Positions 4,556-8,472 of a stretch of 64,000 nucleotides of DNA are shown piece after piece. Position numbers and translations under genes: made by a program. This DNA is from Spirosoma sp. KCTC 42546 (lineage in GTDB: Bacteria; Bacteroidota; Bacteroidia; Cytophagales; Spirosomataceae), in NCBI RefSeq assembly GCF_006965485.1, contig NZ_CP041360.1:5374501-5438500 (forward strand), read 5' to 3'. The notes under the pieces are model-generated. The model did not search any database. It saw only the letters and a list, made by a program, of their open reading frames with translations, and was not told the DNA's origin. Position 1 is the stretch's first letter. The number at the start of each line of letters is the position of its first letter.

Positions 4556-4564
4556 GTTAAGTAA
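4556..4564. repeat. Right 9-bp target duplication of the ISAs1 element
   Basis: GTTAAGTAA, identical to 3391-3399, directly outside the right inverted repeat. Confidence 0.85.
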
Positions 4565-4629
4565 TGTGGTGGCCAAGAGTCTGGATTTCTTTTATTCTTT
4601 GTCAGATAAATCCTAAATCTCCCTTTTTC

Positions 4630-5709
4630 ATGGACTTTAAAGATCAAATTAAACAATTGGCGGAGCGTGTCTCCCGCCTGAAAGACTCTATCCAAACCGA
4701 AGAGGCTACCAAGAATGCCTTCATCATGCCTTTTCTGAATGCACTTGGCTATGACGTATTCAACCCATTCGAAGTAGTACCCGAATTCATATCTGACATT
4801 GGCACCAAGAAGGGAGAGAAAGTAGATTATGCCATCATGCGTGAGGTAAATGGACAACCTGAGCCCTGTATGCTCATCGAGTGTAAGCACTGGAAGCAAG
4901 CCTTGACGCTACATGATAACCAGCTCTTGAGGTACTTTCACGTAACCAAGGCTAGGTTTGGGGTCTTAACCAATGGTGTCATCTATCAATTCTTTACCGA
5001 CTTGGAAGCGCCCAACCGAATGGATGAAAAACCATTCCTTGAGATTAATATGCTCGATTTGCGAGATAATCAAATTGAAGAGCTTAAGAAATTCCATAAG
5101 TCCTACTTCGATGTAGATAGTATTCTGTCGACAGCTAGCGAGTTGAAATACACCAATCAGCTTAAGGTATTGATTCAAAATGAGCTAGCCTCACCTTCGG
5201 AGTTCTTTGTGCGTCATTTCGCCAAACAGGTCTTTACCGGCCAGATGAATGCGCAGCGATTGGAATATTTTACCGGCCTAGTCAAGAAATCATTTCAACA
5301 GTCTTTCTCCGATCAAATTAAAGATCGGCTTACTACTGCACTCACCAAAGAGCAGGAAACACCCGCAGCAATAAGCGTTGAGGTGGCAACCTCCATTGAA
5401 AAGCGTGAGCCTGCTGTTATTACTACTGCTGAAGAGCTAGAGGGGTTTTACATCGTCAGGGCCATACTCAGACCAGTTATATCTCCTGAGCGCATAGTAC
5501 ACCGAGATGCACAGTCTTACTTTGCTATCCTGCTTGATGACAACAACAGGAAACCACTCTGCCGTCTGAATTTTAACGGGCAAAAGAAGTTCATTACTCT
5601 CTTTGACGAAGCTAAAAAGGAAGTCAGGCAAGAAATAAACTCATTAAATGACATATTTGATCATAGTGAAGCACTATTAAGCACTTTAGCAACGTACGGT
5701 ATAAATTAA
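4630..5709 (+). CDS. Restriction-type PD-(D/E)XK nuclease (HSDR_N-like) protein
   Basis: 359 residues from the ATG at 4630; the in-frame upstream ATG at 4564 lies in the ISAs1 target duplication and is unlikely. Residues of about 1-160 resemble the N-terminal nuclease domain of type I restriction R subunits: TEEATKNAFIMPFLNALGYD, then EKVDYAIM with Asp66 and MLIECKHW with Glu84-x-Lys86, the D...ExK signature. Residues 160-290 are helical and charged. There is no helicase or methyltransferase partner, so this is not a classic type I system. Stand-alone proteins of this kind are widespread, often near defence genes. The gene downstream (5781) may be a partner; 71 bp separate them. Confidence 0.75.
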   Translation: MDFKDQIKQLAERVSRLKDSIQTEEATKNAFIMPFLNALGYDVFNPFEVVPEFISDIGTKKGEKVDYAIMREVNGQPEPCMLIECKHWKQALTLHDNQLLRYFHVTKARFGVLTNGVIYQFFTDLEAPNRMDEKPFLEINMLDLRDNQIEELKKFHKSYFDVDSILSTASELKYTNQLKVLIQNELASPSEFFVRHFAKQVFTGQMNAQRLEYFTGLVKKSFQQSFSDQIKDRLTTALTKEQETPAAISVEVATSIEKREPAVITTAEELEGFYIVRAILRPVISPERIVHRDAQSYFAILLDDNNRKPLCRLNFNGQKKFITLFDEAKKEVRQEINSLNDIFDHSEALLSTLATYGIN

Positions 5710-6821: not shown

Positions 6822-6951
6822 CAATTATATACATTCTCATCCTTAAGCCGAGAGTCCAGTAAGATGCATAGTGGAGCTGCTACATTTGACTGGACATTAA
6901 GTTAAGTGTGATCTAACTTAGTGAACCATGAAAACCAGGAGACAGTACGAC

Positions 6952-6967
6952 CGCACGGGCGGCCCCG
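6952..6967 (+). repeat. 16-nt hairpin insert A (CGCACGGGCGGCCCCG)
   Basis: Inserted in orfA between codons for Y-D and E-E-F. Form: CGCA, arm CGGG, loop CGGC, arm CCCG. It is the exact reverse complement of the insert at 8073-8088. Confidence 0.85.
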
Positions 6968-7182
6968 GAAGAATTCAAAAAGATGGCCGTGGAGCTATCA
7001 GTGGCAAAAGGATCGCTAAAAGCGACTGCTGAAGAGTTAGGAATAACCCCACAAATTCTGACCCGGTGGCGTAGTGAACGAGTAGTTGCTCAAGGCTCCC
7101 CAGCCGTCAGCCGAACTCAGGTGAGCCAGGAACAACAAGAAATAATACGACTGAAAAAGGAACTCAAACAGGCTGAATTAGA

Positions 7183-7198
7183 TCGGATCGCCGAAGCG
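7183..7198 (-). repeat. 16-nt hairpin insert B (minus-strand CGCTTCGGCGATCCGA)
   Basis: Inserted inside the Glu codon of QAELERD in orfA. On the minus strand it reads CGCT, arm TCGG, loop CGAT, arm CCGA. It is the exact reverse complement of the insert at 7965-7980. Confidence 0.85.
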
Positions 7199-7825
7199 AC
7201 GCGATATTCTAAAAAAGGCGGTCGGCATCTTCTCCAGGGGCGACGGGAAATATTCGGATTTATAAAGGCTTACCAAACCGAATTCCCCGTTGAGATGATG
7301 TGTAGAGTACTGAATGTAAGCCGCAGTGGGTATTATTATTGGCTAACCCAACGACCCACCAAAAGAGGCACTGAAAATCAAGCTATTACGCAGTTAATCA
7401 GCAACTTGTTCACTGCCAGTAAAGGCCGGTATGGTAGTCCAAAAATTACTCAGGATTTAAACGCTCAGGGCGTAAAGGTATCACGCCCCCGCGTAGCCAG
7501 ACTGATGAAGCAGGCTAATCTTAAAAGCGTCATTCAGAAGAAGTATGTAGTTGCTACTACGGATTCAAAACACACCTACCCAGTGGCCGAAAACCATTTG
7601 AATCGCCAATTTAATCCCATAAAACCGGGCCAGGCCTGGGTGTCTGATCTGACCTACATCCAGACCGGTGAAGGCTGGCTGTACCTGACAATGATTATGG
7701 ATTTGTATGATCGGAAAGTGATTGGCTGGGCCTTGAGTAAATCGATGAAAGCCGCTGAAACAACCATTCCAGCTTGGCAGATGGCGATTAAAAACCGGCC
7801 AATCGAACGCCAGTTGATCTTTCAT

Positions 7826-7841
7826 CGCTCCGGCGACCCGG
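7826..7841 (+). repeat. 16-nt hairpin insert C (CGCTCCGGCGACCCGG)
   Basis: Inserted between the His and Ser codons just before the second catalytic Asp of orfB. CGCT, arm CCGG, loop CGAC, arm CCGG. Its last 12 nt equal those of the tRNA-Ser insert at 2798-2813. No reverse-complement partner is seen within the IS. Confidence 0.85.
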
Positions 7842-7964
7842 TCGGATCGAGGGGTTCAGTATGCCTGTCATAGCTTTACTAGACTGCTGAAAAAACACCC
7901 GCTGGTTGTGCAAAGTATGAGCGGGAAAGGGAACTGCTGGGATAATGCTGTGGCGGAGAGCTTT

Positions 7965-7980
7965 CGCTTCGGCGATCCGA
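7965..7980 (+). repeat. 16-nt hairpin insert B' (CGCTTCGGCGATCCGA)
   Basis: Inserted between the two Phe codons of AESF-FKSL in orfB. Exact reverse complement of the insert at 7183-7198. Compared with insert C, the outer stem pair is T-A in place of C-G, so pairing is kept. Confidence 0.85.
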
Positions 7981-8072
7981 TTCAAAAGCCTCAAGTCGGA
8001 GTTGGTCTATCAGCACGATTTTCAAACGCAAGCCACGGCTAAACAGGCAGTCTTTGAGTACATAGAGATTTG

Positions 8073-8088
8073 CGGGGCCGCCCGTGCG
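8073..8088 (-). repeat. 16-nt hairpin insert A' (minus-strand CGCACGGGCGGCCCCG)
   Basis: Inserted inside the Trp codon of EIWYNRQ near the end of orfB; the exact edge is ambiguous by one base. Exact reverse complement of the insert at 6952-6967. Confidence 0.85.
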
Positions 8089-8188
8089 GTACAATCGCCA
8101 ACGAAGGCACTCAGCATTAGGCTATCTTTCCCCTTTCGACTATTATAACAGGCAATATCAAAATGTGGCTTAGAGATTTGTCCAGTGT

Positions 8189-8472
8189 TCTGTTGCAAGT
8201 CCACTTTGCATGTACTCAAAGAAATTGACCTTTTGCTTTAAGGCAGGTGCTACACCATTATGTTCAGCCCCGGCCTGTAATTCCCTTTTGGCCCTGATAT
8301 TCTCAGCAGTTTGGGTAACAGCCTTGTTGTGTTGCTTCTCTAAATCGTCTTTTGGCCGCTTGTAGAGATAGAGTTTTAAAAATTCATACGTACTCTGCTC
8401 CCCATTATAGAGGTCTAAATAGAGGCTAATTTTCCCGCTAGCCAGCGCCTTTTTTCGAAGTTTAACTGCCAT
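8189..8472 (-). pseudogene. Tyrosine recombinase, N-terminal fragment cut by IS3
   Basis: The frame starts at the ATG at 8470-8472 and reads MAVKLRKKALASGKISLYLD, LKLYLYKRPKDDLEKQHNK and ENIRAKRELQ. This matches the N-terminal arm-binding part of Bacteroidota phage-type integrases. It ends where the IS3 right end begins; the last residues before the stop are IS sequence. The core-binding and catalytic domains (R..HxxR..Y) are absent from the window. It begins 180 bp from tRNA-Leu and reads away from it, a usual layout for an element integrated in a tRNA gene. Likely the relic of a genomic island that spans part of the region to the left. Confidence 0.7.

Follow-up and report, generated by a model that had tools for sequence, protein, structure and literature searches.

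Hairpins of 15-16 nt that interrupt transposase genes in Spirosoma: candidates for very small mobile DNA elements

Background

An IS3-family element of Spirosoma sp. KCTC 42546 is broken at five places by hairpins of only 16 nt, and the question raised by this locus is what these hairpins are and how they came to lie within a transposase gene. The window, by which is meant the whole stretch of 64,000 nt that was analyzed (positions 5,374,501 to 5,438,500 of the forward strand of contig NZ_CP041360.1, assembly GCF_006965485.1), belongs to a genome assembled as one contig of 8,664,091 bp. A first-pass annotation, made from the letters alone, had noted the inserts and had offered three readings: a minimal mobile hairpin, an insert that is removed from RNA, or the trace of a host mechanism for silencing transposons.

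The IS3-family element and its inserts

The IS3-family element (orfA/orfB type) was placed at 6872..8203 on the + strand from its sequence, Pfam matches, and alignment to other copies. Its ends were set by eye and are imperfect inverted ends (TGGAGCTGCTACATTTGACTGGACA and ...TCCAGTGTTCTGTTGCAAGTCCA), and its longest open frame matches the Pfam profiles HTH_Tnp_1, HTH_21, and rve. The orfA-orfB coding region extends from ATG to TAG at 6928..8173 (+), with the frame broken at every insert; compared with the insert-free copy G014a, the window copy has 0 in-frame stops and 0 partial codons.

All five interruptions reported by the first-pass annotation were confirmed from the sequence, and all fit the form CGCN-arm-CGRY-arm'. 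Insert 1 (CGCACGGGCGGCCCCG, site 1) occupies 6952..6967 on the + strand, between the codons D|E (GAC|GAA), and insert 2 (CGCTTCGGCGATCCGA on the - strand, site 2) occupies 7183..7198, within an E codon of orfA. Insert 3 (CGCTCCGGCGACCCGG, + strand, site 4) lies at 7826..7841, at H|S of the motif FHSDRG; insert 4 (CGCTTCGGCGATCCGA, + strand, site 5) lies at 7965..7980, at F|F of AESFF; and insert 5 (CGCACGGGCGGCCCCG on the - strand, site 6) lies at 8073..8088, within the W codon of W-Y-N-R. A length of exactly 16 nt, as originally described, holds for these five but not for the family, in which 15-nt forms with one base fewer between the stems exist. A cmscan of the window against Rfam at the gathering threshold returned five tRNAs only and no match for the inserts. 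Just upstream of the IS3 element, a gene at window positions 4564-5709 encodes an HsdR N-terminal domain.

Filled and empty sites in related copies

Other IS3 copies of the same genome were compared, as had been proposed, and were found to share most of the window sites and to carry further inserts elsewhere. There are two further long copies, 84% and 82% identical (the latter cut at its 5' end), with inserts at five and four of the window's five sites, respectively, in addition to those at further sites. The alignment was extended to 16 copies from ten genomes, some of them partial, and contains at least 12 insert positions, one of them degenerate; at every position, filled copies stand beside empty ones. 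Each of the five window positions is empty in some of the 16 copies, which bears out the view that the inserts are extra letters; the possibility that the 16 nt are ancestral parts of the transposase was tested and does not hold, insert-free homologues being available. Zero inserts are present in G013a and G014a, and G040b has a single insert, which is 15 nt long and in frame; genome G014 has three IS copies of equal score at 74% identity.

Site 1 (D|E) is empty in G021a, G013a, G014a, G021b, G022a, G040a, and G040b, is filled by CGCACGGGCGGCCCCG in two copies, and holds a different hairpin, CGCAACGGCGGACCGT, in G005b. At site 2, a letter-identical insert is found in six copies and others are empty, and at site 6 (the W codon) the window copy has the 16-nt form and G021a and G021b have a 15-nt hairpin. 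No duplicated target bases are seen at the precise filled and empty sites. The junctions are sometimes unclean: at site 2b the net gain is 15 nt, yet a 16-nt hairpin is visible, and G009 and G005_C38 have a base -1 (the first base to the left of the insert) unlike that of their empty relatives. A 20-nt variant in which CGAT is doubled is present in L003. A tree was built from the non-insert alignment columns, with some branches modestly supported and missing data set by hand, and the Fitch count on this tree assigns 2, 2, 3, 3, 3, 3, 4, 4, and 5 changes to the nine sites that were scored. If insertions are never lost, each of these sites requires 2-7 gains.

Some further features of these IS3 copies were recorded. 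A separate 14-nt hairpin (GGCAC-GCG-GTGCC) is present in G021a and G021b (L083, L105; alignment column ~382) and was excluded from the family. In G023 (L085/L106), a copy of this IS3 is interrupted close to the orfA/orfB overlap (TATTTTAAAA) by an element encoding a 455-aa transposase, presumably of the IS110 type. At that orfA/orfB place the IS3 halves are ~1.65 kb apart in G044 (L205/L211) and G039 (L188/L198), and the sequence departs from IS3 in G042 (L189).

Abundance across the genome, genus, and order

A search of the genome and its relatives for the hairpin pattern, which the first-pass annotation had suggested, yielded many matches above the backward control as well as homologues with empty sites. 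The pattern CGCWNSGGCGNNCCS, which was derived from the window inserts themselves, has 101 matches in the 8.66-Mb genome vs 10 for the backward pattern. The narrower pattern CGCWNCGGCGNNCCG has matches in 36/36 Spirosoma genomes, with 12-247 in each and 0-8 for the controls; across 14 genomes that belong to the same order but to other families, the counts are 0-5, with 0-9 for the controls. The exact pattern at one insert site was found in 15 stretches, nine from Spirosoma, five from Dyadobacter, and one from Emticicia. The H|SDxG pattern was found in 0 stretches of the IMG/VR viral contigs, and 29 plasmid records had distant matches to the IS, 0 of them covering 80% of it.

Intergenic hairpins at L039, L040, L051, and L061 (G000) recur inside the phrase ctctgtgttctctgtg|...|ctctgtgg, and at L039 and L051 that phrase holds two inverted hairpin copies ~65-70 nt apart.

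Stems, covariation, and flanks

Covariation was scored over 186 of 300 distinct 16-nt places, these being left after removal of similar flanks. Stem A, in which positions 5-8 pair with 13-16 and the outer pair lies at the right junction, is the hairpin that the first-pass annotation had drawn. Its pair 6-15, for which the pattern admits no letters other than C and G, is Watson-Crick in 180/186 places, G-C accounting for 25, and its pair 5-16, which is unconstrained by the pattern, is Watson-Crick in 134/186. The arms covary as had been claimed, but the drawing was incomplete, in that a second stem makes use of the host base to the left of the insert. In this stem B, host base -1 and element bases 1-3 pair with bases 8-11, and the outer pair lies across the left junction.

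The strongest pair that involves a flank is -1/11, both positions of which are free in the pattern. It is Watson-Crick in 151 of the 186 places (118 C-G, 26 T-A), where 98.1 were expected and the maximum in 2000 shuffles was 113, and in 136 of 161 (90.9 expected) when places in long open frames are set aside. By location, the pair is Watson-Crick at 26/28 matches in IS copies, 5/9 in long frames, and 50/61 elsewhere. Pair 1-10 is C-G at 281 distinct places and G-C at 23, with 1 C-C and 3 G-G; when the letters were loosened, 208 C-G, 14 G-C, and 1 T-A were counted, together with mismatches of C-A (3), T-T (2), and T-G (1). Pair 2-9 is nearly invariant (G-C in 208/212), and the element start reads CGCW. 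From the joint change at 1-10 and the pairing of -1 with 11, it therefore follows that a second stem, B, overlaps A and spans the left junction. Stems A and B share base 8 and would exclude each other there; a pseudoknot of the two was set aside from the pairing pattern, since it would leave no more than a single base in each linking loop, apparently too little. A G1-C10 subfamily (GGC...GCC) is represented at L058, L105, L097, L099, L203, L254, L265, L011, L204, L241, and L088, and keeps the -1/11 rule in 10 of these 11 places.

At sites 1, 2, 4, and 5, the empty copies have at -1 the same base or the other pyrimidine, and base -1 is therefore attributed to the host. At the H|SDRG site, where -1 is the third letter of the His codon, A11 accompanies CAT in several copies and G11 accompanies CAC in G005a and D. 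soli. At site 4, however, five of the eight copies of the window's IS family have a T-C mismatch at -1/11 (CAT with C11), so the pairing rule is not strict. The flanks of 129 deduplicated places have A at -2 in 79, C or T at -1 in 86 and 31, T or C at +1 in 59 and 46, and C at +2 in 58. The corresponding target preference, A-Y|Y-C, is loose and weak, and alone it fails to explain the recurrence of one codon boundary across families.

Folding energies of the five inserts are unremarkable relative to shuffled sequences (z -0.15 to -1.75) and were dropped as structural evidence; because they are ordinary, the evidence for structure is covariation and not stability.

Genes and sites interrupted

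Of the 101 genomic matches, 98 could be placed on loci. There are 28 in nine IS copies, which total ~10.4 kb or 0.12% of the genome (the ends of four of the nine were set by hand, and these rates rest on one genome), nine in long open frames, which are probably native coding sequence, and 61 elsewhere. Among 297 distinct hairpins, 45 have both sides open for at least 45 codons across the insert. These 45 interruptions are mostly in transposases, called mostly by eye and not by profile scan; the set over-represents IS3, its loci having been fetched by IS3 match, and some may be chance open frames. Further frames with three or four inserts each also appear by eye to be transposases.

The motifs H|SDxG, W|VSDLT, and AESF|F are recurrently broken, and the SDLT, HSDRG, and E codons are presumed to be catalytic sites of transposases. 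The H|SD pattern was found at 15 places in 7/36 Spirosoma genomes, 14 of them at H|SD[RQ]G of IS3-type frames of several families and the fifteenth on the opposite strand of an IS3-type gene. In two transposases the DDE_Tnp_1 match runs up to the insert, ending at profile positions 164 and 165, respectively. Transposases of the DDE_3, DDE_Tnp_1_3, and IS110 types are likewise split, although the N-terminal match in the IS110 case falls under its cut-off. The split transposases are taken to be of IS4-, ISAs1-, IS630-, and IS982-like kinds, names that were given from motifs, as were the presumptive family names IS256, IS200, IS1182, and IS5.

In G022, an XisH gene is split into pieces that match positions 3-58 and 59-134 of the profile, end to end, and another split gene has a WYL domain in its right piece and no match in its left piece. 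The probable WYL-domain regulator and the XisH gene (L134 and L121) are the two non-transposase cases with Pfam matches that were seen.

Discussion

Among the readings offered at the outset, that of a minimal mobile hairpin is supported by matching filled and empty sites, by dispersed copies in both orientations, and by covarying stems; removal from RNA is disfavored, and a silencing mark fits the concentration in transposase genes, although host machinery for it was not found. The hairpins of 15-16 nt probably, with a fair measure of doubt, insert as DNA by a single-strand, structure-guided reaction that leaves no target duplication. Insertion at the DNA level is favored because the hairpins occur in both orientations and all phases and because many copies are outside genes. 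They are likely to rank with the smallest mobile DNA elements, and a gene that receives one would usually be broken by it. The inserts common to the window copy and L002 differ in 1/80 letters vs 127/366 third codon positions, as is expected if the insertions are recent and repeated. Over all pairs, which are non-independent, 94/1464 insert letters (a count inflated by one mis-registered G021a insert) differ vs 7290/18288 third positions. The simplest reading is that divergence came first, while the genes still functioned, and that parallel hits at identical sites followed; the near-identity of shared inserts could instead reflect constraint.

It is distinctly unlikely that the inserts are excised after transcription or bypassed by the ribosome, in the manner of tiny introns, so that the transposase still works. 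The coding sequence would agree with such removal: the window copy has no other lesion, and it differs from L002 at 24/15/126 first, second, and third codon positions (~364 each) despite five common inserts, a third-position bias that exceeds that of the insert-free pair G013a/G014a (28/18/90). The bias may, however, predate the insertions, and purifying selection was rejected as proof of RNA removal since it is equally expected if the insertions postdate the divergence. Six insert-bearing copies (L002, L003, G021a, G021b, G022a, and G005b) have extra stops or indels, although the insert-free G013a has a lesion as well; five to seven inserts in series would demand very efficient removal; inserts lie in both orientations within one gene and in reading phases 0, 1, and 2; 61 of 98 placed matches fall neither in the nine IS copies nor in long frames; and no essential gene was interrupted among the loci read. 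On the other side, some insert-bearing IS copies have multiplied. Two 977-bp copies, presumably IS982-like (L012:764-1740 and L050:1283-2259), are 977/977 identical at different places, and each has a frame-breaking insert; their flanks differ, with no clear long target duplication. In this search 13/19 first-look candidates were scored, no further match to the 977-bp copies was found in the one-contig genome at E 0.001, and an insert-free relative is present in G005. S. luteum has two copies with an insert at H|SDRG that are 614/617 identical with different right flanks (the contig with the 5' half of an insert-bearing copy is also split by another element), and in D. soli two contigs share this insert, start 6 nt before it on its left side, and match each other until roughly the IS end. 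Multiplied copies of this kind count against a killed transposase as the sole account. They could reflect post-transcriptional removal, but IS copies can also be moved in trans, may have had a helper that was later lost, or may be moved by a protein with an internal start in the presumed IS982-like gene.

A host system that silences transposons by writing hairpins into their transposase genes would also suit the observed concentration, in which transposases from several unrelated families are hit, often close to codons for presumed catalytic residues. Consistent with this, the insert-bearing DDE_Tnp_1 genes are single-copy, one pair excepted, and 16/20 DDE_Tnp_1 matches in the genome, including a six-copy and a three-copy family, have no listed hairpin match within 1 kb. 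Such a system is nevertheless unlikely: no silencing machinery or guide was found, many hairpins are intergenic, the XisH gene and the probable WYL regulator are split too, and the purging of insertions from useful genes yields the same bias without any defense. It is very improbable that the 16-mers are what a larger transposon left behind on excision, their two halves being its terminal repeats. The halves of stem A are inverted repeats and the length does vary (15 nt, and 20 nt with CGAT doubled in L003), but the length is nearly uniform, base 11 pairs with host base -1, and the aligned copies contain no larger insertion at the hairpin sites. An assembly or sequencing artifact, to which G+C-rich hairpins are prone in principle, can practically be disregarded, given matches above control in 36/36 genomes that include drafts and one-contig assemblies, shared sites, and covarying letters.

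If the hairpins do move as DNA, stems A and B may be alternative forms that are recognized in turn at the left and right ends, stem B setting the position of cleavage on the left and stem A on the right, in both cases at the stem base. The element would then consist of overlapping left and right ends with nothing between them. Through base 11 the element would read a single target base, -1 (G11 for C, A11 for T), atop the A-Y|Y-C preference. A 16-nt insert would shift the frame and usually kill the transposase, and copies may persist where transposase genes are dispensable and share conserved targets around their catalytic residues. The resident Y1/RAYT transposases were considered as the mover and found no support. 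None of the five Y1_Tnp genes of the genome is flanked by hairpins, one match being ~1.3 kb away. Y1 matches are present in 29/36 Spirosoma genomes, but by eye the hairpin counts do not follow them, and of the 7/36 that have none, two contain 141 and 136 hairpin matches.

Should this explanation be right, two overlapping 4-bp stems, in which one base reads the target, are enough for a mobile DNA unit; transposons are themselves parasitized or silenced where their codons are most conserved, and the broken transposase genes of this bacterial group could be explained. It is rather unlikely, but conceivable, that Spirosoma and Dyadobacter have a system that writes 15-16-nt hairpins into catalytic-motif codons of unrelated IS transposases, with the sites chosen by hairpin-target pairing; no smaller mobile DNA would then be known, and the hairpins would in practice serve their hosts as an internal means of silencing transposons.

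Comparison with known systems

The first-pass annotation had known of no described element of this form, and no description of these inserts was recognized in the open literature searched, subscription papers being mostly outside that coverage. Translational bypassing elements (T4 gene 60 and the mitochondrial byps) are short hairpins that interrupt otherwise open genes on one strand. They act on that strand only, whereas the hairpins here are found in both orientations and all phases, with many copies outside genes.

The nearest known kinds are the cyanobacterial SDR5 and the REPs. SDR5 belongs to the small dispersed repeats of cyanobacteria, reportedly described by Elhai et al. in 2008, is about 21-27 nt long, and has HIP1 as its target. 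According to the accessible part of PMC4390886, it is inserted precisely between nucleotides 3 and 4 of HIP1. The likeness is the precise insertion of a tiny mobile module into a repeated target, and the hairpins, like the small dispersed repeats, are tiny repeats with precise filled and empty sites in relatives. Compared by description only, they differ from SDR5 in being 15-16 nt long, in having a loosely defined target (A-Y|Y-C) and a stem that takes in a host base, and in riddling transposase genes.

With the REP/REPIN and RAYT systems, the hairpins share dispersed short palindromes and a single-strand logic, and inverted intergenic pairs occur here too. They are without the GTAG tag and measure 15-16 nt vs 20-40 nt for REPs in the available text of PMC3733652; the REPINs (PMC3116915, as far as accessible) and the GTAG and CGTC REPs (PMC3733652) are longer or differently tagged. 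Neither a GTAG or CGTC tetranucleotide at the palindrome end nor a Y1 transposase gene flanked by the repeats was found here. The same part of PMC3733652 describes CGTC-tagged REPs, including the Rickettsia RPE, as short palindromes with no known transposase that lie within and between genes, and lists Bacteroidetes among five phyla with CGTC repeats. Those repeats differ in their CGTC tag and CCA tail and in occurring in genes of known proteins, with no transposase bias described in that part of the source. Nothing alike is described in the accessible portion of PMC4853749.

For TnpA-REP and IS200/IS605, the cleavage site is chosen by guide pairing (PMC8266576, available part). As in IS200/IS605-like elements, there is no target duplication here and the element pairs with its left flank. 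The resemblance to IS200/IS605 is a working one, in which the left and right ends would here be folded into one 16-mer.
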